49,069 bases of DNA, from NCBI GenBank assembly GCA_011090425.1, contig PHGD01000020.1:1-49069 (forward strand), read 5' to 3'. The notes beneath the pieces were generated by a model. That model was given only the letters and a program-made list of their open reading frames with translations. It had not been told where the DNA came from and ran no database searches. Source of the stretch: Nitrospira sp. LK70. Lineage in GTDB: Bacteria; Nitrospirota; Nitrospiria; Nitrospirales; Nitrospiraceae. Made by a program: the position numbers and the translations under genes. Positions within the stretch are counted from its first letter, which is position 1. Each line of letters begins with the position of its first letter. Below, one piece after another: positions 9,759 through 45,835 of this stretch.

Positions 9759-10763
9759 TTAGAGCACCGCTTCGCGGAGAAACGTCGCGGCTTCTTCCGG
9801 TGACACCGGATTAATGTAGAAGCCGGTGCCCCATTCGAAGCCTGCAACTTGCGTCAGTTTGGGAATGATCTCCAGGTGCCAATGGTAGTAATCGCCGGTC
9901 TTCTCGTGAAGGGGAGAGCTATGCAGGATGAAGTTGTACGGGGGACGGGACAACACTTTGTCCATGCGGCGCAATGACTCCGAAAGAATGGGAGCCAGAA
10001 ATTCGAACTGCGACTTCTGACTTTCCTCAAAATACGCCGCGTGACGCTTGGGAAGAATCCACATTTCGAATGGAAACCGCGGTGCGAACGGCGTCATACA
10101 GAGAAACTCCGGATTTTCGGCGACGATCCGATCTCCATCCGAGAGATCCTGCCTGAGGATGTCGCAGTAGATGCAACGCTCCTTCTGCTGATAATGATTG
10201 CGGCATCCGTCAAGCTCCTCTTGGACGCTGGTCGGGACGATCGGTAGGGCGATGAGCTGAGAATGGCTGTGTTCCAATGTCGCACCGGCGGATACACCGT
10301 GGTTCTTGAAAATGAGAATGTAGCGGAACCGCAGATCCTTTCTGAGATCGATCATTCGGTCCCGATAGGCCCACAGCATGTCCTCGATCTTTTTGGTGGG
10401 GAGATCTGCGAGGCCTTCGACATGGTTGGGTGTTTCGATGATGACTTCGTGAGCGCCCACGCCGTTCATGCGGTCGTAGAGACCCACCCCCTCGCGACCC
10501 ATGTCACCTTCGACTTGCAACGCGGGAAATTTATTCGGGACGACGCGCACGGTCCAGTTGGGAGAATTGGGTCCGCCCGACTGCGGTCGATAGGCCATGA
10601 TTTCTTTCGGTGTGAGCCGTTCCTGTCCCGGGCAAAAGGGACAGAGGGCGGTGGAAACAGGTCGGGTCTGTTGAGGTTTGATGAAGTCATGTGGACGGCC
10701 CCTTCGTTCTGTGGAAATGATGACCCAGCGGCCCACAATGGGATCACGTCTTAAATCGGGCAT
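9759..10763 (-). CDS. galT: Galactose-1-phosphate uridylyltransferase
   Basis: A 334-aa HIT-superfamily transferase that exchanges UMP between UDP-glucose and galactose-1-phosphate (Leloir pathway). The N terminus MPDLRRDPIVGRWVIIS and zinc pair CPFCPG (about residues 42-47) are typical. The active-site segment is EHSHSQLIALP, and a second metal-binding part is HWHLEIIPKL near the end. Some GalT-like enzymes of this type act as sugar-1-P or nucleoside adenylyl/uridylyltransferases with wider substrates. It is directly followed by the CCA enzyme gene and preceded by the GH57 gene, which suggests sugar polymer turnover. Confidence 0.88.
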   Translation of the reverse strand: MPDLRRDPIVGRWVIISTERRGRPHDFIKPQQTRPVSTALCPFCPGQERLTPKEIMAYRPQSGGPNSPNWTVRVVPNKFPALQVEGDMGREGVGLYDRMNGVGAHEVIIETPNHVEGLADLPTKKIEDMLWAYRDRMIDLRKDLRFRYILIFKNHGVSAGATLEHSHSQLIALPIVPTSVQEELDGCRNHYQQKERCIYCDILRQDLSDGDRIVAENPEFLCMTPFAPRFPFEMWILPKRHAAYFEESQKSQFEFLAPILSESLRRMDKVLSRPPYNFILHSSPLHEKTGDYYHWHLEIIPKLTQVAGFEWGTGFYINPVSPEEAATFLREAVL

Positions 10764-15640: not shown

Positions 15641-17005
15641 CTATTCTTTTTGTTGTTTGAGTAACCGAGCCAGGTAGGTTCGTTGAAGCCCGAGCGAATC
15701 GGCGGCTTTCGTCTGATTGCCTTCGGCCTCCTCCATCGCGCGCGCGATGATGTAGCGGCTGTGCTGCTCCATCGATTCATGGTAGGGCAGGTTCAGATAG
15801 GGCAGGGGAGTATCGTCATTTCGATGGAGGATGGTGTCCTCCGCCAGTAGGGCCAACATCTCCGGTTCGATGATGTCTTTCGGGCTCAAGACGACCGCGC
15901 GCGCGATCACATTATCCAATTCTCGAATGTTTCCCGGCCAGGGATAGCGGATCAAGGCATTGAGCGCGGCTGTGCTCAGAGTCATGCCTGGTCTTTTCGC
16001 ATCTCTCGTATGTCGATCCAAAAAAAACTGGGCCAGCGCCGCGACATCCTCCGATCGTTCGCGAAGCGGCGGCAGGGTCAGGCTCACGACGTTGAGTCGA
16101 AAATAGAGATCTTCGCGGAAGTGGCCTGCCCGCACAGCTTGCCGAAGATCCTTGTTCGTGGCTGCAATGATGCGGATGTTCACAGAGACGATCTTGGAGC
16201 CGCCGACGCGGTGAAACTCACGGTCCTGCAGGACGCGTAAGAGCTTAGCCTGCAACGGAAGAGACATGTCTCCAATCTCGTCGAGGAAGACGGTCCCACC
16301 GTTGGCCATTTCCAGCTTGCCTTTTTGCTGCCGATCCGCCCCGGTGAACGCGCCACGTTCGTGGCCGAACAGTTCGTTCTCCAGCAGAGTCTCTGTCAAG
16401 GCCACGCAGTTGATCACGACGAGCGGCATCGAACAGCGATGACTCCACTGATGGATCGAACGCGCAAAGAGTTCTTTCCCGGTGCCGCTTTCGCCCAGCA
16501 GCAACACGCTCGCATCGGACTTGGCGGCTCGCTGTGCCGATTCCACGACGGACCTGACCGCTGGACTGTTGCCGACGATGTTGGCGTAACGGCTGTGGAC
16601 CTCGGAACGAAGATAGGCGACTTGCCGTCGGAGCGAATCTCGCTCTAACGCTTTGCGGATCACGATGAGCAGATGATCTTTGTCGAGAGGTTTGGTCAGA
16701 AAGTCGTAGGCGCCTTGTTTCATAGCGTCCACTGCTGCTTCAATGGATGCGTATGCGGTCATCACAATGACAGGAGGACCATCCGATGGTTTCATCTGGG
16801 ACAGACGCTTGAGGACCTCAAGCCCCGACACCTTGGGCAGCGTGAGGTCCAATAGGATAAGGTGCGGAGATTCGTCAACGATTTTGTCAAGCGCCTGCTG
16901 CCCCTCGGTGGCCACGATGGTCTCGTACCCGGAGGCTTGGAGCCGGTCCTCGAGCATCATGACGATGTCGGGATCATCGTCGACAATAAGAATTTTGGCG
17001 TTCAT
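15641..17005 (-). CDS. NtrC-type sigma-54 response regulator
   Basis: A 454-aa protein with a receiver domain (acidic DDD at 9-11, phosphoacceptor Asp53 in LLDLTLPK, Lys105), an AAA+ sigma-54 activator domain (Walker A GESGTGKE at 171-178, GAFTGA at 218-223 that contacts sigma-54) and a C-terminal Fis-type helix-turn-helix (EGNQTKAADSLGLQRTYLARLLKQQ). No sensor kinase gene is adjacent, so its partner is elsewhere. It lies 103 bp downstream of the DUF1015 gene on the same strand and could be cotranscribed. Confidence 0.93.
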   Translation of the reverse strand: MNAKILIVDDDPDIVMMLEDRLQASGYETIVATEGQQALDKIVDESPHLILLDLTLPKVSGLEVLKRLSQMKPSDGPPVIVMTAYASIEAAVDAMKQGAYDFLTKPLDKDHLLIVIRKALERDSLRRQVAYLRSEVHSRYANIVGNSPAVRSVVESAQRAAKSDASVLLLGESGTGKELFARSIHQWSHRCSMPLVVINCVALTETLLENELFGHERGAFTGADRQQKGKLEMANGGTVFLDEIGDMSLPLQAKLLRVLQDREFHRVGGSKIVSVNIRIIAATNKDLRQAVRAGHFREDLYFRLNVVSLTLPPLRERSEDVAALAQFFLDRHTRDAKRPGMTLSTAALNALIRYPWPGNIRELDNVIARAVVLSPKDIIEPEMLALLAEDTILHRNDDTPLPYLNLPYHESMEQHSRYIIARAMEEAEGNQTKAADSLGLQRTYLARLLKQQKE

Positions 17006-37490: not shown

Positions 37491-39440
37491 ATGGCTCTTT
37501 CGTCAGCCGATCCTTCCAAGCCGCTACAGGACCTTGAAACCGACGTCGCCTTGCGCGCAATTCTCGAAGGGACCGCAACGGAAACCGGGCAACAGTTTTT
37601 CACGGCTCTGGTCCAGAACCTTGTCAAGGCTCTTGGCACGCACGGCGCATGGGTGACGGAATATTTCCCCGAGACACGTCGGCTGCGGGCATTCGCTTTC
37701 TGGCTGGACGGCCAGTGGGTCAAGGACTATGAAATGGACATTGCCGGAACGCCTTGTGAGCGGGTGATCGATACAGCCAAACTGGTGCATTTCCCCGATC
37801 GTATGCTGGAAATTTTTCCTCACGATGAGGAAATGAGGACTATCGGTGTGGTGAGCTATATGGGCGTGCCGTTGCAAGACACGGACGGGAAGAGTCTCGG
37901 TCATATGGCTGTGATCGACCGGCGACCCATTCCGGAGGAGCCGCGTGTCCATGCAGTGTTTCAGATCTTTGCCGCGCGAGCAGCGGCAGAATTGCAGCGA
38001 CTGCGGGCGGAAGCCCAGGTGCGCGAGCGGGAGGAAAAAGTCGGGCAGCTCCTCAATAGTGCGATGGACGCGATCATCGAGCTCGATGATCGCCTTCATA
38101 TCAGCCACGTGAATCCCGCCACGGTGAAAGCATTTCGCTGTCCCGCGGACAAAATGACGGGCCAGGATTTCCGGCGCTTCATTAGTCATCAAGATTCGGA
38201 GCGGCTTCTCACACTGATCGCCGAGTTAGACGGACTTCCGGAAGGCGAGCGGTCGCGCTGGATTCCCGGCGGGCTCACCGCCCGCTGTCCAGAAGACGAG
38301 TCCTTTCCCGCCGAAGCTACGCTCTCCCGTTTCGAGCTGCATCGCCGGAAGTACACGACGCTGATCCTCCGAAACGTCCGTGACCGTGTAGAAGCGGAAC
38401 AGAAAATTCAGTCGCTCACCGTCGAAACCGAATTCCTACGGGAAGAACTCCGGGCACTATATCAAGACGGCACGTTGATCGGTGAGAGCCTGGCTCTTAA
38501 ACAGGTGCTCCGTGATGTTTCCCAAGTCGCAGGAACTGACACCACCGTCTTAATCATGGGCGAAACGGGCACCGGCAAGGAACTGGTCGCGCGCGCCATC
38601 CATGCAGCCAGTTCTCGACGGGAACGGCCATTGATCACCGTCAACTGCGCGACCATCCCGGCCACTTTAATCGAGAGCGAATTCTTCGGCCACGAGCCAG
38701 GCGCCTTTACCGGGGCAACCAAGAAGCGCGAAGGTCGGTTCTCTCTGGCCGACAAAGGCACCATTTTCCTGGACGAAATCGGCGAATTGCCGCTCGAGTT
38801 ACAGGCGAAATTGCTCCGCGTGCTGCAAGAGGGCGAGTTCGACCCGGTCGGCAGTTCAAGGACCACGAAAGTCGATGTACGGGTGCTTGCTGCCACCAAT
38901 CGAGATCTTGCATCAGCAGTCAAGCAGGGCACATTCCGCGAAGACCTCTACTACCGGCTGAACGTGTTTCCGATCAGGCTGCCGCCCTTGCGTGAACGGG
39001 GCGACGATGTGGTGAGGCTTGCCTCCGTCTTTGCCAAACGGTTCGCCGCGAAGATGGGACGGACGCTTGCGCCGCTAACCGCCGGCGACGCCCGTAGGCT
39101 TCAAACTTATCGTTGGCCCGGCAACGTGCGAGAGCTGCAAAATGTCCTCGAGCGAGCCGTCATTACTGCAGAGGACGGCAAGCTTAACCTTGATCGAGCC
39201 TTGCCGGAGACGCTATTGGTTCATGGAGTTCCAGCAAGCAGAACCGCTTCTCCTCCCGACGCTATTCTTTCAGCAAAGGAACTCGAGGAACTGGAACGAA
39301 CCAACATTCTAAGAGCTCTTGAGGCTGCAAAGTGGAAAGTGTCCGGTGAAAAGGGTGCGGCATCATTACTTGGACTCAATGCCTCGACGCTCTCATCGCG
39401 TATGAAAGCGCTGAAGATTCACAAACCTGTCTCACGCTGA
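37491..39440 (+). CDS. Sigma-54-dependent activator with GAF and PAS sensor domains
   Basis: A 649-aa enhancer-binding protein. A GAF-like domain covers about 25-170, a PAS domain 185-300 and the AAA+ domain 325-560, with Walker A GETGTGKE at 357-364 and GAFTGA at 404-409. A Fis-type HTH is at the C terminus (EKGAASLLGLNASTLSSRMKALKIHK). It lacks a receiver domain, so a ligand or redox cue sensed by GAF/PAS is more likely than phosphorylation. Two sigma-54 promoters with matching upstream dyads lie downstream (39491-39627 and 44481-44617), and these are its likely targets. It is divergent from trmL. Confidence 0.93.
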   Translation: MALSSADPSKPLQDLETDVALRAILEGTATETGQQFFTALVQNLVKALGTHGAWVTEYFPETRRLRAFAFWLDGQWVKDYEMDIAGTPCERVIDTAKLVHFPDRMLEIFPHDEEMRTIGVVSYMGVPLQDTDGKSLGHMAVIDRRPIPEEPRVHAVFQIFAARAAAELQRLRAEAQVREREEKVGQLLNSAMDAIIELDDRLHISHVNPATVKAFRCPADKMTGQDFRRFISHQDSERLLTLIAELDGLPEGERSRWIPGGLTARCPEDESFPAEATLSRFELHRRKYTTLILRNVRDRVEAEQKIQSLTVETEFLREELRALYQDGTLIGESLALKQVLRDVSQVAGTDTTVLIMGETGTGKELVARAIHAASSRRERPLITVNCATIPATLIESEFFGHEPGAFTGATKKREGRFSLADKGTIFLDEIGELPLELQAKLLRVLQEGEFDPVGSSRTTKVDVRVLAATNRDLASAVKQGTFREDLYYRLNVFPIRLPPLRERGDDVVRLASVFAKRFAAKMGRTLAPLTAGDARRLQTYRWPGNVRELQNVLERAVITAEDGKLNLDRALPETLLVHGVPASRTASPPDAILSAKELEELERTNILRALEAAKWKVSGEKGAASLLGLNASTLSSRMKALKIHKPVSR

Positions 39441-39490
39441 TCTTGCCTCTGAGCGCCCAGACCTTCCTACCTGCGGGAATATCTTTCTTT

Positions 39491-39548
39491 TGCGAAATCT
39501 CGAAAATGCACTCGTGAGATCTCATAAGTCGTGAAATCTTGTGAGGCA
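39491..39548 (+). promoter_or_regulatory. Putative enhancer (UAS) of the RND operon
   Basis: Contains the dyad CTCGTGAGATCTCATAAG beginning at 39511, with related elements on both sides (TGCGAAATCT, GTCGTGAAATCT). Aligned to 44481-44538 at a constant offset of 4990, the central 20 bases match at 18 positions. It lies about 100 bp upstream of the -24/-12 promoter, the usual range for sigma-54 activators. Confidence 0.65.
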
Positions 39549-39611
39549 TCTGCTTGCTTTGTCTGATCTCTAACCCTTTGAACATGCATCGTGTGCTCTC
39601 ATTGAAAGGCG

Positions 39612-39627
39612 TGGCACCAATGCTGCT
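39612..39627 (+). promoter_or_regulatory. Sigma-54 (-24/-12) promoter of the RND operon
   Basis: TGGCACCAATGCTGCT has the -24 GG and -12 GC separated by exactly 10 bases and a good TGGCAC box. It differs by one base from the promoter at 44602-44617. Confidence 0.75.
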
Positions 39628-39677
39628 CTAAGAATTCAGCACCGCGTCAATCACTTACAGCAAGGAGTGGGACTACG

Positions 39678-39800
39678 ATGACTATTTGGGAGCTTGGCAA
39701 TGACAAGGGTAGCAGGACAGGAAGCAGCCTGAGATTCAGGTCGGGGCTGCGCCTATGGATAATTCAACCTAAACATCAAGCTCAGATTTCTTTGAGCTGA
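39678..39800 (+). CDS. Possible 40-aa leader ORF ahead of the RND operon
   Basis: An ATG-started 40-codon frame (begins MTIWELGNDKG) with AAGGAG about 12 bases upstream. It is the first start codon after the sigma-54 promoter and ends 13 bp before the membrane fusion protein start. The sequence is basic and unfamiliar. It may be a translated leader or chance. Confidence 0.33.
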   Translation: MTIWELGNDKGSRTGSSLRFRSGLRLWIIQPKHQAQISLS

Positions 39801-39813
39801 GACAGGATCGGTC

Positions 39814-40977
39814 ATGATAACAACACGATGCTTAATTGCAACGACGTTTCTACTGGTCGGGTGCGGATCCAAGGGGGAACCATTTACGGCGGTGGTTTCA
39901 GCCGCTTCACAGGAGGCTATTCAGGCTGAGGTTGTCGAGGTCAAACACGTTTCGGTGCCGATCCGCATTGACGTGACCGGTCAGGTAGTGGCGATCTTTC
40001 AGGCTGCACTTTCCAGCCGTATCCAAGCAACCATCGACACACTGTTCGTTCGAGAAGGCACGCCGGTCGTCAAGGGACAGACGCTTATTCAGCTGGATAA
40101 CCGTGACGTACGGGCCGACTTGGCGCGCGCCTCGGCGGAGGTAGAAAACACGAAGGCCCAACTCGACCGTATGAACCAGTTGTACGCTCAAGATGCCGTT
40201 TCAAAACAAGAGATGGAGAATGCAACTCGTGCTTACAAGGTAGCGGAAGCCAACCGTACGACAGTGCTCGCCCAGCTGAGTTATACGATTGTCAAGGCGC
40301 CGTTCGACGGCGTGATTACCGAGAAAATGGTGGAAGCAGGTGAATTGGCCTCGCCGGGGCAGCTCCTGTTGAAGATGGAAAATCCCCGGCAACTCCGGCT
40401 TAGAGCGACTGTGGCGGAGGGAGATTTGAGATCGGTATCTCTCGGGGACAAGATTGCTGTGGTCATCGATGCCTTGGGTGAACAAGCGCTGGACGGCGTC
40501 GTCGGTCAAATTCTGCCGGTCGGCGATTCGCAGACTCACACGTTTACCGTGAAAGTGGACTTGCCTGCTGAACCGGGGCTGAAAACCGGCATGTTCGGAC
40601 GATTCCAATTGGCTAAAGGAACCAGCAAGACGATTCTCGTGCCAGGGACCGCCGTCGTCGAACGTGGCGAACTCACGAGCGTCTTCGCCGTTGGCTCGGA
40701 TCAGATCGCCCGCCTTCGCTGGGTCAAAGTCGGTCGGCACCTCGGCCAACAGATCGAAATCCTGTCCGGTGTGAATGTCGGCGAGTCGGTGCTGCTCGAT
40801 GCGACTAGGGGTATTGATGGTGTGGTCGTCAAGATCGTCGATGCCGCGACATCAGCTGCCCTGCCGACAATGTGCAGCCTATCTTGTCAGCCACCTTGGT
40901 CAAAAGATGCGAGTTCTGTCGCTCAGGTTTCAGATAGCGGTCTCTCTTACGTGAAACGTTCCACTCAAGTTCGGTGA
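39814..40977 (+). CDS. RND efflux periplasmic adaptor (membrane fusion protein)
   Basis: A 387-aa lipoprotein adaptor: signal ending LLVGC (lipid Cys about 17), barrel-sandwich lipoyl halves (IDTLFVREGTPVVKGQTLIQLD and APFDGVITEKMVEAGELASPGQ), a helical hairpin between them, and beta-barrel/MP domains to about residue 345 (VPGTAVVERGE..VFAV). It links the RND pump to an outer-membrane channel, for which no gene is nearby. The last 40 residues (from PTMCSLSC) do not resemble the family and may be an extension created by a shifted stop. It ends four bases before the pump gene. Confidence 0.9.
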   Translation: MITTRCLIATTFLLVGCGSKGEPFTAVVSAASQEAIQAEVVEVKHVSVPIRIDVTGQVVAIFQAALSSRIQATIDTLFVREGTPVVKGQTLIQLDNRDVRADLARASAEVENTKAQLDRMNQLYAQDAVSKQEMENATRAYKVAEANRTTVLAQLSYTIVKAPFDGVITEKMVEAGELASPGQLLLKMENPRQLRLRATVAEGDLRSVSLGDKIAVVIDALGEQALDGVVGQILPVGDSQTHTFTVKVDLPAEPGLKTGMFGRFQLAKGTSKTILVPGTAVVERGELTSVFAVGSDQIARLRWVKVGRHLGQQIEILSGVNVGESVLLDATRGIDGVVVKIVDAATSAALPTMCSLSCQPPWSKDASSVAQVSDSGLSYVKRSTQVR

Positions 40978-40981
40978 ACGA

Positions 40982-43900
40982 ATGACGAACCATCGTCCCG
41001 GCCTTTCGGGCCGCATCGCCGCCCTCTTCATCGGGAGCAAGCTGACGCCGCTCATGATGGCGGGGGCATTGTTGCTGGGCCTGTTTGCGGTCGTCGCCAC
41101 GCCGCGTGAAGAAGAGCCTCAGATCGTTGTTCCCATGGCCGACGTCTGGCTGCCCTTTCCCGGCGCCTCCGCCAAAATTGTCGAAGAACAGCTGACCAAA
41201 CCTTTCGAGCGCAAGATCTCCGAAATCAAGGGCGTGGAGTACGTGTATTCGATCTCGCGGCCAGGGGGCGCCCTGGTCATCGTCCGCTTCTACGTCGGCC
41301 AGCAGATGGAGCAGAGCCTGGTCGATCTCTACGATAAGCTGATGTCGAATCAGGATCTGTTGCCACCGGGGGCCGAACCCTTTGTGGTCAAGCCGAAGGA
41401 CGTGAACGACATCCCGATTGTGACGATCACCCTGTCGAGCGAACAGTATGGCGAATTCGAATTGCATCAATTGGCCGAGCAGGTATTGGAGGAAGCCAAG
41501 AAGGTTGCCGGCACATCCGGGGGCTTCATCGTCGGCGGTCGGGCGCGAGAGCTGCGGGTGCAGATAGACCCCGCAAGGGTGAAGGCCTATGGGCTGACCC
41601 CCTTGCAAATCGCGGCGGTCATTCGCGGGGAGAATCGAGCCTTGCCGACGGGCCGCTTCGACAGCCGCAATCAGAACTTCCTTGTGGAGACCGGTCGGTT
41701 CATTCGGTCGCGCGAAGACCTGGAAAGCCTGGTCGTCGGCGTGAGCGATCAACGACCGGTCTATCTGCGGCAAGTGGCGGAGATCATCGACGGGCCGGCC
41801 GAAGCGACGAACTATGTCTGGTTCGGTCTCGGTGCCGGTGATGCCTCGTCTGATCCCTCTCGACGGACGTCTCACGAGTCTCCGGCTGTGACCGTGGCCA
41901 TTGCCAAACAGGGTGGCGTCAACACGGTGACCGTCGCTGAGCAGGTCATCCGCAAGGTCGAAGACATGAAAGGAGTGACAGTTCCGTCGGATGTCCGCGT
42001 TACCATCACGCGCGATTACGGGGAGACCGCGCAAGAGAAGGCCAACGATCTGCTGTGGCACCTGCTCATCGCCGTCGTCGCCGTGGTCCTCTTCCTCGGC
42101 GTTGCGCTCGGACCGCGCCCTGCCCTCGTCGTGTCCGTCACGATTCCGCTCACCCTGGCCTTGACGCTGTTTACGTCCATGCTCATCGGCTACACGATTA
42201 ACCGAGCCACGCTCTTCGCCCTGATCTTCTCCACCGGCATTCTAGTGGACGACGCCATCGTCGTCGTCGAGAACACGTACCGACACCTGCGGCTGCGCCT
42301 TCGTCCCCATGATGAAGCGGCTATCTATGCCGTCGATGAAGTTGGAAATCCGACGATTCTGGCGACCTTCACCGTCATCGCTTCGCTCCTTCCAATAGCT
42401 TTCATATCCGGTTTGATAGGCCCCTACATGAGGCCGATTCCCATCAATGCCTCCATCGCCATGTTCTTTTCCCTGCTCGTGGCTTTTGTGGTGATTCCGT
42501 GGTTCTGCCGAACCTGTTACCGTCCAGGGGTTGCCGTCAAAGACGTTGATCACGAAGAAAATGAAACCGGCTTCACGGCACGCCTCTATCGTTGGGCGCT
42601 CTCACGGTTGTTGCTCCGGCCGTACTTAGCTTATTCCTTCTTGAGCATGATCACCCTCATGCTGGTCTGGTCTTGCCTTTTATTTTACACAGGCCACGTG
42701 GTTATGAAGATGCTGCCGTTCGACAACAAGAGTGAGATTCAGTTGGTGATCGATATGCCGGAAGGGACGACTCTGGAGGAAACCGCCCAGGCCGCTAAGG
42801 CTCTGACGCAATATGTCCGCACCCTTCCAGAGGTGCGGGACTACCAGGCCTACGTCGGCACGGCTTCCCCATTCAACTTCAACGGCCTGATGCGCCACTA
42901 CTTTCTGCGGTCGCTGCCGCACGAGGCGGATATTCAGATCAACTTGGTACCCAAGGCTGAACGGCGGACTCAGAGCCATGACACCGCACAGCGGATTCGT
43001 TCCTCTATTCAAGAGATCGGGCGTCAGTATGGCGCGAATGTCAAGATCGTTGAAGTGCCGCCGGGTCCGCCCGTGCAATCGGTGTTGGTGGCGGAAATTT
43101 ACGGTCCCGACTATGGGCGGCAACTTGCCGTTGCGAGCGAGGTTCGAGCATTGTTCGAGTCTACGCAGGGGGTTGTCGATGTAGACGACTCTGTCGAGGC
43201 GGATCAGGTGAAGTACGTCTTCACGGTCGATCAGGCGAAAGCGGCGCTCGTCGGAATTTCTTCCGAGGAGATTGTAGCCACGTTGCACATGGCATTGGAG
43301 GGAACGAAAGTCGGGCTCGTCCATACTCCCCGGGAGAAGAGCCCGGTGCAAATCATGCTGCGCCTTCCCCTGGCGGAGCGAACGGGGCTCGAACCTCTCG
43401 GGGAACTCGGATTGAGGACGAAGAACGGCGGGATCGTCCAGCTCTCCGAACTGCTCACGGTCGAACGGACGGTGCAGGACAAAGCCATTTACCATAAGAA
43501 CCAAAAACCCGTGGTGTATGTGACGGCCGACGTGGGAGGACCTGGCGCGGAGAAGGCGGAGAGTCCCGTGTACGGCGTGCTCGGAGTTGGGAAGAAACTG
43601 AAAGACTATCGGCCGGTCGAAGGATATCGGATCGAACAACACTACGTCTCCCAACCCTGGTCGGAAGATAAGTTCGGGATGAAATGGGACGGGGAATGGC
43701 AGATCACCTATGAGACATTCCGCGACATGGGCATCGCCTTTGCCGTGGCGATGTTGCTGATTTACCTCCTGATCGTCGGGCAGTTCCAATCCTTTCTCAC
43801 TCCGCTGATCATCATGGCTCCGATTCCACTCACGCTGATCGGCATTCTACCGGGGCATTGGCTGACAGGATCGTATTTTACGGCCCCGTCGATAATCGGC

Positions 43901-44281
43901 TTCATCGCGCTCGGCGGCATCATCGTTCGGAACTCGATATTGCTCGTGGATTTCATCCAGCTTCAAGAGCGTACGGGTGTTCCATTGCTGGAGGCGGTCA
44001 TTAAGGCCGGCGTGATCCGTACGAGACCGATTCTCTTGACGGCAGCCGCGCTCATGGTAGGCGCCTTCGTGATCGTTCTCGATCCGATCTTCCAAGGGCT
44101 GGCTGTATCGCTCCTTTTTGGCGTAGGGGCTTCGACGGTGCTCACACTGTTCGTGATCCCCTTGCTCTACTACCGCATTGTCGGACAAACGTCCCAATCC
44201 GGCCGGCCTTCCGCGGAAATTGCGATGAGAAACGGAGAAGCGGTCATTCATCGCGTGCGGGCAGAAGAAGTTTCGGTTTGA
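40982..44281 (+). CDS. RND efflux pump inner-membrane transporter
   Basis: A 1099-aa proton-driven RND transporter of the AcrB/HAE class with about twelve membrane segments and two large periplasmic loops. The family pattern includes PFPGASAKIVEEQLTKPFE in the first porter domain, VVLFLGVALGPRPALVVSVTIPLTL and ILVDDAIVVVENTYRH (the paired Asp of TM4) in the first half, and GFIALGGIIVRNSILLVDFI in the second. A cytoplasmic tail follows the last segment. The substrate is not deducible. It is cotranscribed with the adaptor under the sigma-54 promoter at 39612. Confidence 0.94.
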   Translation: MTNHRPGLSGRIAALFIGSKLTPLMMAGALLLGLFAVVATPREEEPQIVVPMADVWLPFPGASAKIVEEQLTKPFERKISEIKGVEYVYSISRPGGALVIVRFYVGQQMEQSLVDLYDKLMSNQDLLPPGAEPFVVKPKDVNDIPIVTITLSSEQYGEFELHQLAEQVLEEAKKVAGTSGGFIVGGRARELRVQIDPARVKAYGLTPLQIAAVIRGENRALPTGRFDSRNQNFLVETGRFIRSREDLESLVVGVSDQRPVYLRQVAEIIDGPAEATNYVWFGLGAGDASSDPSRRTSHESPAVTVAIAKQGGVNTVTVAEQVIRKVEDMKGVTVPSDVRVTITRDYGETAQEKANDLLWHLLIAVVAVVLFLGVALGPRPALVVSVTIPLTLALTLFTSMLIGYTINRATLFALIFSTGILVDDAIVVVENTYRHLRLRLRPHDEAAIYAVDEVGNPTILATFTVIASLLPIAFISGLIGPYMRPIPINASIAMFFSLLVAFVVIPWFCRTCYRPGVAVKDVDHEENETGFTARLYRWALSRLLLRPYLAYSFLSMITLMLVWSCLLFYTGHVVMKMLPFDNKSEIQLVIDMPEGTTLEETAQAAKALTQYVRTLPEVRDYQAYVGTASPFNFNGLMRHYFLRSLPHEADIQINLVPKAERRTQSHDTAQRIRSSIQEIGRQYGANVKIVEVPPGPPVQSVLVAEIYGPDYGRQLAVASEVRALFESTQGVVDVDDSVEADQVKYVFTVDQAKAALVGISSEEIVATLHMALEGTKVGLVHTPREKSPVQIMLRLPLAERTGLEPLGELGLRTKNGGIVQLSELLTVERTVQDKAIYHKNQKPVVYVTADVGGPGAEKAESPVYGVLGVGKKLKDYRPVEGYRIEQHYVSQPWSEDKFGMKWDGEWQITYETFRDMGIAFAVAMLLIYLLIVGQFQSFLTPLIIMAPIPLTLIGILPGHWLTGSYFTAPSIIGFIALGGIIVRNSILLVDFIQLQERTGVPLLEAVIKAGVIRTRPILLTAAALMVGAFVIVLDPIFQGLAVSLLFGVGASTVLTLFVIPLLYYRIVGQTSQSGRPSAEIAMRNGEAVIHRVRAEEVSV

Positions 44282-44480
44282 GCGAGCGGATATGGCTTCC
44301 TGCAAGAGACTGAGTTTTCCCCTGTAGTACACGGAAAGATGGGTTGACGGCATTGGGATTGACAAGGCCTGTGGCTGAAGGCGGCGGGCAGCGCACAGGG
44401 TTGGATGTCACAGGTGAGAAAGTCCAACTGGAGAACAGTTTCTCTTGTCTTACTTTGCCACAACTGTTTTCCCGCGGACT

Positions 44481-44538
44481 TGTCAAATTTCACAAATCCT
44501 CTCGTGAGATTTCATGAGTCGCGAGGTTTCGTGGACGG
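44481..44538 (+). promoter_or_regulatory. Putative enhancer (UAS) of the small membrane protein gene
   Basis: Contains the dyad CTCGTGAGATTTCATGAG at 44501-44518 plus flanking similar elements (GTCAAATTTCAC, GTCGCGAGGTTTCG). The central dyad is 101 bp upstream of the -24/-12 promoter start, exactly as in the copy at 39491. Confidence 0.65.
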
Positions 44539-44601
44539 CTCGTTTCTCCTTTCCCACTCCAATCTGGATGATATTCCTTCGGTTTCTCGAAGTTGCCGCC
44601 C

Positions 44602-44617
44602 TGGCATCAATGCTGCT
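44602..44617 (+). promoter_or_regulatory. Sigma-54 (-24/-12) promoter of the small membrane protein gene
   Basis: TGGCATCAATGCTGCT: GG and GC separated by 10 bases, one mismatch to the promoter at 39612-39627. The start codon of the next gene is 43 bp further on. Confidence 0.75.
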
Positions 44618-44659
44618 CCATGCATCTGCATCGGTTTGAGCAACAGAAAGGAGCAAGCG

Positions 44660-45094
44660 ATGGCGAACACATATGATCTCGGCTGGTGGTATTGGTTTCT
44701 GACTGTGGCGCTGTTGGCAGCCTGGCTTGCCGGCTGGCAGCCGGGAATCTACCTGGCGATGGCGCTCTGTGTCATTCAGATCATTCATGTGAGGAGCCTC
44801 ACGCATGCACTCACCGCCTTTCCCATACAGGTGCGGATAGCCTATCTGGGGCTGTTGCTGGCAGGGCTATGGGAGCCATTGGCCTGGCTCCACTGGGTGC
44901 AACTGGTTGGAACCAGCGCCAGGGTTTTGGTCGGCTACTGTTTCCTGGCGAGAACCCTGTCGTTGGCACCTTGGAACAGCGTACAGCCGTTCACACTTGC
45001 GTTGCTCCAGCGAACCTACTTCGCGCTGCAGGCGGCCGCACCTCCTTGTGGTGCTGTGTTTGCTCGCATTTCGCTCGAACGGGCGCAGGTATGA
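44660..45094 (+). CDS. Four-helix membrane protein under sigma-54 control
   Basis: A 144-aa protein, nearly all hydrophobic, with about four membrane segments (WYWFLTVALLAAWLAGW, IYLAMALCVIQIIHV, VRIAYLGLLLAGLWEPLAW, LVGTSARVLVGYCFLA). I recognise the general pattern (Trp-rich N terminus, LARTLSLAPWN near the end) as that of a conserved bacterial hypothetical family without known function. ATG at 44660 follows AAAGGAGCAAGCG. The frame is open upstream to 44405, through the promoter, which excludes that longer start. The shared regulation with the RND pump suggests a part in the same envelope response. Confidence 0.82.
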   Translation: MANTYDLGWWYWFLTVALLAAWLAGWQPGIYLAMALCVIQIIHVRSLTHALTAFPIQVRIAYLGLLLAGLWEPLAWLHWVQLVGTSARVLVGYCFLARTLSLAPWNSVQPFTLALLQRTYFALQAAAPPCGAVFARISLERAQV

Positions 45095-45835
45095 GCCGGG
45101 GAGCATTGTCCCGCAATGCCTGATTCACCGCAGCATATGGGAGGGAGAGTGATGGTACAGGCAACTATGAGCGGAATCGTCAAGGGCGTCGATGTGGGGA
45201 TCGGTTAGGGGCAGCCGGTCCAGGCTGTCCAGCAGAATCCAAGGTTGGAGGGCTCGCAGTTCCGAGCCCTCAACTGCCTCTCTCGTATACGTTCCGATAC
45301 AGTGGTTGAAGAAACAGATACAGTTCATTCAGTTGTCGGCTGACAACGTCCTAGCCCGGCCAAGCCGACTCCTATCCTTCAGCTTCAATTCCTCCAGAAA
45401 TTCCAGCAGTCTTAGCCCGTCATCCCGATCAACACCAATCTTTTCACGCGGCAAGCTCCTGGCCTGGGAGTTGCTATTCACAATGGTGTACGAGGTCTTC
45501 GATGATGCGGCTCCTCTTACATAAGCTTGGACACCTGATGGCCCTTGGCGCCAGAACAATGGTCCAAATTGGAATGACCCTGTTTCTGACGAAACAGTTG
45601 ATCCTGCGAGACTGGTTCGAGAAGGCGATCTCGTAGCTTATGTGGGCAAGATATTTCGAGGGCAAGAAATCAACCACTATGGGAGGAGTTGAGTTCCCAT
45701 ATGAACTTGCTGAGTAGAAATATAATAGGATGATTGCTGCAGCGGTCGCAAGGTTTGCATCGGCTGCATCGCTTCCATGCGTATGCCTGGAGGCAACGTG
45801 CAGACGAACCAAAGCGGGTCTTGCAATCTGTCTGT
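45095..45835. other. Gene-poor region with decayed sequence
   Basis: About 740 bp. The first part contains an OsmC-like remnant described separately. From 45307 on I see only short chance frames on both strands and no RNA gene or repeat. Confidence 0.45.
45152..45306 (+). pseudogene. OsmC-like N-terminal remnant
   Basis: A GGGAGGGAGAG site is followed by ATG at 45152 and a frame reading MVQATMSGIVKGVDVGIG, a TAG stop, then in the same frame QPVQAVQQNPRLEGSQFRALN. This order (GV[DN]V, ..AVQ.[ND]P.L, FRA.N) is that of the N terminus of the YhfA/OsmC-type peroxiredoxin-like proteins. The remaining domain, including catalytic cysteines, is absent. It therefore looks like a stop-containing, truncated relic. 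The match is from memory of the family. Confidence 0.4.

Follow-up and report, generated by a model that had tools for sequence, protein, structure and literature searches.

What holds together, in Nitrospira sp. LK70, an RND pump and a small membrane protein whose promoters share one sequence and one geometry? In the window, by which we mean the whole 49,069-nucleotide stretch analysed here (contig PHGD01000020.1), a sequence-only reading had proposed a local sigma-54 regulon under an adjoining activator. This observation is real and extends further than first described. The modules, their conservation, their linkage to the activator and the traces of their duplication can be read from the DNA of the window and its relatives, and we consider it very likely that the locus is a small self-linked sigma-54 regulon wired as set out below. 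Nitrospira are nitrifiers of importance and are difficult to manipulate. Of their many uncharacterised sigma-54 activators, one is here assigned a clean DNA motif and a target set that is small and defined.

The activator and its proposed enhancer-promoter modules

The regulatory elements of the window, with the evidence for each, are as follows.

37491-39440, + strand: sigma-54 enhancer-binding activator (Pfam, motif check, orthologues in 10 genera)
39489-39506, + strand: dyad I of the pump array, TTTGCGAAATCTCGAAAA (alignment of 32 modules)
39511-39528, + strand: dyad II of the pump array, CTCGTGAGATCTCATAAG (genome scan, module alignment)
39528-39545, + strand: dyad III of the pump array, GTCGTGAAATCTTGTGAG (module alignment)
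39571-39581, + strand: IHF-like site TAACCCTTTGA in the array-promoter interval before the pump (YAAN4-5YTGA pattern)
39612-39628, + strand: sigma-54 promoter of the pump, TGGCACCAATGCTGCTC (GG-N10-GC, TGGCA...GC context)
44479-44496, + strand: dyad I of the second array, CTTGTCAAATTTCACAAA (module alignment)
44501-44518, + strand: dyad II of the second array, CTCGTGAGATTTCATGAG (genome scan, module alignment)
44518-44535, + strand: dyad III of the second array, GTCGCGAGGTTTCGTGGA (module alignment)
44602-44618, + strand: sigma-54 promoter of the membrane protein, TGGCATCAATGCTGCTC (GG-N10-GC, TGGCA...GC context)

As the sequence-only reading had it, the adjacent gene encodes an activator with GAF (residues 34-168), PAS (188-245), AAA+ (329-495) and Fis (598-640) domains by Pfam and no receiver domain. 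The AAA+ sigma-54 interaction domain is confirmed (PF00158, 246 bits), the Fis-type DNA-binding domain scores 22.9 bits against a cut-off of 22 (PF02954), and the motif check found both GAFTGA (residue 404) and Walker A GETGTGKE (residue 357) intact. An rpoN gene is present in the genome. The promoters at 39612 and 44602 are both of the -24/-12 type, differ by a single base and carry GG-N10-GC within a TGGCA...GC context. The dyad reported before each of them, of the pattern CTCGTGAGAT, starts exactly 101 bp upstream at both sites, and in the 4.70-Mb genome it is matched exactly at these two sites only, the reversed-pattern control giving none; with up to three mismatches there are nine matches, namely the two sites, their reverse-strand readings and five scattered others.

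Alignment of 32 modules from the window and the genus revealed that each array consists of three dyads, with the CTCGTGAGAT dyad in the middle, centres I and II lying 22 bp apart and II and III 17 bp apart, and an approximate consensus of TCRYGARATYTCRYGA. The mean number of palindromic pairs out of nine, uncorrected for kinship, is 5.9, 6.3 and 5.0 for dyads I, II and III, respectively, versus 2.1 for the spacer; the third dyad is degenerate in a few genomes. An IHF-like YAAN4-5YTGA site lies 40-43 bp before the TGG in 21 of the 32 modules (0.5 expected in shuffles, kinship again uncorrected) and is absent from the other 11, the second window module included. The two additional dyads of each array had been overlooked, as had an OsmC pseudogene and a stump of the membrane protein gene before the pump.

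Linkage of the module to the activator

Orthologues of the activator occur in 28 of the 79 genus genomes (identity 74-89%) and, across the order, in 56 of 235 genomes, representing 10 of 37 genera and two families. In the activator tree, the window groups with G054, G032, G010 and G027a, and G055 with G066, G059 and G078. At nearly all orthologous loci with readable downstream sequence, the array and promoter lie directly 3' of the activator gene, with a dyad-to-promoter distance of 98-103 bp within the genus; in the second family (activator identity 62-65%), inspection by eye shows a divergent array and a TGGCA...GC promoter, which the strict scan does not capture. A gapped module pattern gave 29 matches in the 79 genus genomes and none for the reversed control. 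As 25 of these matches are at the activator cassette and four elsewhere (two of the four inside long open frames), the regulon is essentially local. The complete genome of Nitrospira moscoviensis (NZ_CP011801), one of the members, has one match to a module pattern, and its cassette is arranged as activator, membrane protein and OsmC. The strict pattern was found in 19 of 28 genomes with the activator and in 1 of 51 without it (Fisher p ~1e-10), or in 4 of the 51 when chance hits are counted (p ~4e-8), and mean identity across modules is 71% for arrays, 86% for promoters, 45% for spacers and 29% for upstream sequence, all of these statistics being inflated by kinship of the sequences.

Since the array and promoter lie behind nearly all readable orthologues of the activator, over a range of 10 genera and two families, binding of the activator to the array is strongly implied. 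The dyads could instead bind another regulator, for example a repressor, with the adjacent activator acting elsewhere: activator-dyad binding is a prediction, and further candidate AAA+ activators are numerous in the genome (57 at first look). However, the array stands behind the activator throughout this range and is rare in genomes lacking it, and its distance from the sigma-54 promoter is typical for an enhancer, which makes this alternative very unlikely. The proposal of a local sigma-54 regulon under the adjoining receiver-less activator therefore agrees with what is found order-wide. The regulon is new as a regulon, its mechanism being of a familiar kind; in the literature searched for work on Nitrospira sigma-54 enhancers or OsmC we found no description of the cassette, and for Bradyrhizobium a single sigma-54 promoter has been predicted ahead of an OsmC-like gene (PMC13207237).

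Predicted target genes and the history of the two modules

Downstream of the modules, the window contains the following genes and gene remnants.

39678-39800, + strand: stump of the small membrane protein gene, a 41-codon ORF before the pump (counterparts in G055 and G137)
39814-40977, + strand: periplasmic adaptor subunit of the RND pump (NCBIfam TIGR01730, 188.6 bits, cut-off 94.9)
40982-44281, + strand: RND pump permease, AcrB family (Pfam ACR_tran)
44660-45094, + strand: small membrane protein, 144 aa (orthologues at the same position in relatives; no family match)
45152-45274, + strand: OsmC pseudogene, its frame being MVQATMSGIVKGVDVGIG, an in-frame stop and GQPVQAVQQNPRLEGSQFRALN

Of 51 loci, 35 have an OsmC-family gene downstream and 28 have the small membrane protein, truncated in some; the commonest order behind the module is the membrane protein followed by OsmC, and in the second family OsmC is the sole recognised target. 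SnoaL-like, MBL-fold, methyltransferase and PD40 genes stand behind the module at other loci, and in several relatives SnoaL-MBL-methyltransferase operons replace the usual targets. The frame of the window OsmC pseudogene resembles the start of the OsmC proteins found at the same place in relatives, and two OsmC-family genes are present elsewhere in the genome. The cassette OsmC subfamily keeps the LAAC cysteine and has a serine where the second cysteine of OsmC/Ohr proteins would presumably be expected; because of this replacement, peroxidase activity is not assured. The same serine and the same N-terminal extension are seen in the OsmC-like protein of PDB 2opl, which cassette OsmC matches over its full length (E 3e-55) but which was deposited as a hypothetical protein; we know of no link between it and any sigma-54 activator.

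The small membrane protein matched no Pfam or NCBIfam family. Its model is mostly helical (pLDDT 80.8), and no fold was assigned, as the best PDB match had an E-value of 4.1. Its gammaproteobacterial relatives stand in other surroundings, sharing no activator, module or steady neighbour, with an OsmC gene near a few. In the window, its frame is open upstream across the second module (44405-44659, a 229-aa ORF), and conservation favours the start at 44660. Just past the promoter at loci L037 (G033), L050 (G030) and L047 (G051), an internal deletion appears to have left only the first and last codons of the gene (for example, MAALLDLGVCVPCGAVFRRMSLAQVS).

The sequence-only reading had made efflux the theme of the response, and the pump turns out to be a late addition found behind the module in four genomes: the window, G054, G055 and G137, the last of another genus. 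Its permease is a paralogue of the genus-wide RND pump, of which the LK70 genome retains another copy, 83% identical, at G000:C104. Absence of the dyad upstream of orthologous pump genes had been named as an argument against the regulon; indeed, no module was found upstream of those copies of the genus-wide pump for which this region was examined, and because the window pump is a relocated paralogue this weighs nothing against the regulon. A pump-centred efflux regulon, with the membrane protein as a pump accessory, would fit the presence of modules at both genes in the window, G054 and G055. Most relatives, however, have the module and the membrane protein without the pump, and the G137 pump has the module without an intact membrane protein; we regard this reading as very unlikely and take OsmC and the membrane protein as the usual targets.

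How the pump obtained its module is suggested by remnants. The window pump is preceded by a stump of the membrane protein gene, and so are the pumps of G055 and G137, where the stump (ATGACGATTCGGGATCTTGGCAATGAC... and ATGACGACCATTCGGGATCACGGC..., respectively) has a beginning like that of the intact genes (ATGACGATTCGCGATCTCGGCTGGTGG...). G055 also contains, before the pump module as well as before its second membrane-protein module, fragments of the coding end of the activator Fis domain (87% and 79% identical). They lie at 10188-10325 and 15697-15837 of the L045 reverse complement, without the rest of the activator gene. It had been argued that the dyad-promoter spacer is not conserved and that the match is not simply a recent duplication. 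The first point holds between the two window copies, whose spacers are 37% identical, and fails across species, where the second module's spacer shares 97% identity with the corresponding G054 spacer and 73-80% with those of several other modules. The first window module is a mosaic, with an array like those of G027b and G059 and a promoter and downstream part like G055_pump (92%). As judged from these comparisons, the two window modules derive from an old duplication followed by recombination and not from independent origins, and the argument against duplication does not stand. Convergence or site-only selection, to which the dissimilar window spacers might point, is very unlikely, the least probable of the alternatives, in view of the Fis-end fragments, the stump before the pump copy, the alignability of the second spacer between species and the mosaic of two module types in the first copy.

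Proposed mechanism and known systems

The mechanism that the cassette most resembles is that of NorR at norVW in Escherichia coli, likewise a receiver-less GAF-AAA+-Fis activator whose gene adjoins its target and whose sigma-54 promoter is preceded by three enhancer sites, comparable to the three dyads in the alignment of 32 modules (PMC2941729; PMC4987338). The three NorR sites are essential and act as a scaffold for the AAA+ ring (PMC2941729; PMC4987338). The likeness is mechanistic only: the window activator carries an extra PAS domain, and NorR binds GT-N7-AC and has targets other than those seen here. As a NorR the activator was rejected, scoring 371.4 bits under a cut-off of 476 and lacking the iron-site residues; in a weak pairwise alignment, H111, C113 and D131 of the NorR GAF domain stand opposite V, Y and I, and R75, Y98 and D99 fall in gaps. 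Its AAA+/Fis half is of the FhlA type, but FhlA binds CATTTCGTACGAAATG and no formate genes are seen at the window locus; as an FhlA it was also rejected (359.8 bits under a cut-off of 830). Regulators annotated 'FhlA' have been reported for every Nitrospira surveyed, and the targets known for FhlA for some of them only (PMC5596200); these regulators may not be the window activator.

We propose that the three dyads behind the activator gene constitute its own enhancer, with a probable IHF bend site and then a -24/-12 promoter downstream of them. Using their Fis domains, activator dimers would occupy all three dyads and form a ring in the manner of NorR. When the GAF or PAS domain receives a signal, possibly a ligand or a redox change as previously suggested, the AAA+ ATPase would be unlocked and would then open sigma-54 RNA polymerase at the promoter. 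Ancestrally, the output would be an OsmC-family protein, usually together with the small membrane protein, and would serve to detoxify an oxidised or electrophilic organic compound, a role to which we give an even chance; the detoxification reading is not uniform, as several relatives carry SnoaL-MBL-methyltransferase operons instead. Because the targets comprise OsmC, efflux, SnoaL, MBL and methyltransferase functions, a reactive or oxidised organic compound is the most likely signal, a view we hold about as readily as we doubt it. In the window lineage, the module was copied along with adjacent coding sequence; the RND pump would now be driven by one copy and the small membrane protein by the other, while OsmC has decayed.

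One sensor would thereby connect a protein of the OsmC type with an as yet unnamed family of membrane proteins, and regulon growth through module duplication appears to have been caught with intermediates still present. Somewhat more tentatively, the activator 3' end, three-site enhancer and promoter may form a portable cassette that is copied locally and recruits new genes. If so, the pump and the hydrolase-methyltransferase operons would fall under one reactive-organic-compound sensor in nitrifiers.

Some loci depart from the usual arrangement. In G034 (L026, 2793-4236), an unrelated opposite-strand 388-aa frame parts the activator from the module, as an inserted mobile element would, and the same frame comes after the activator in G031 (L052, from 3828). 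In a MAG labelled Planctomycetaceae (L175, JANQRQ010000022.1), the activator (60-64%) and the membrane protein occur together, through transfer or misbinning.
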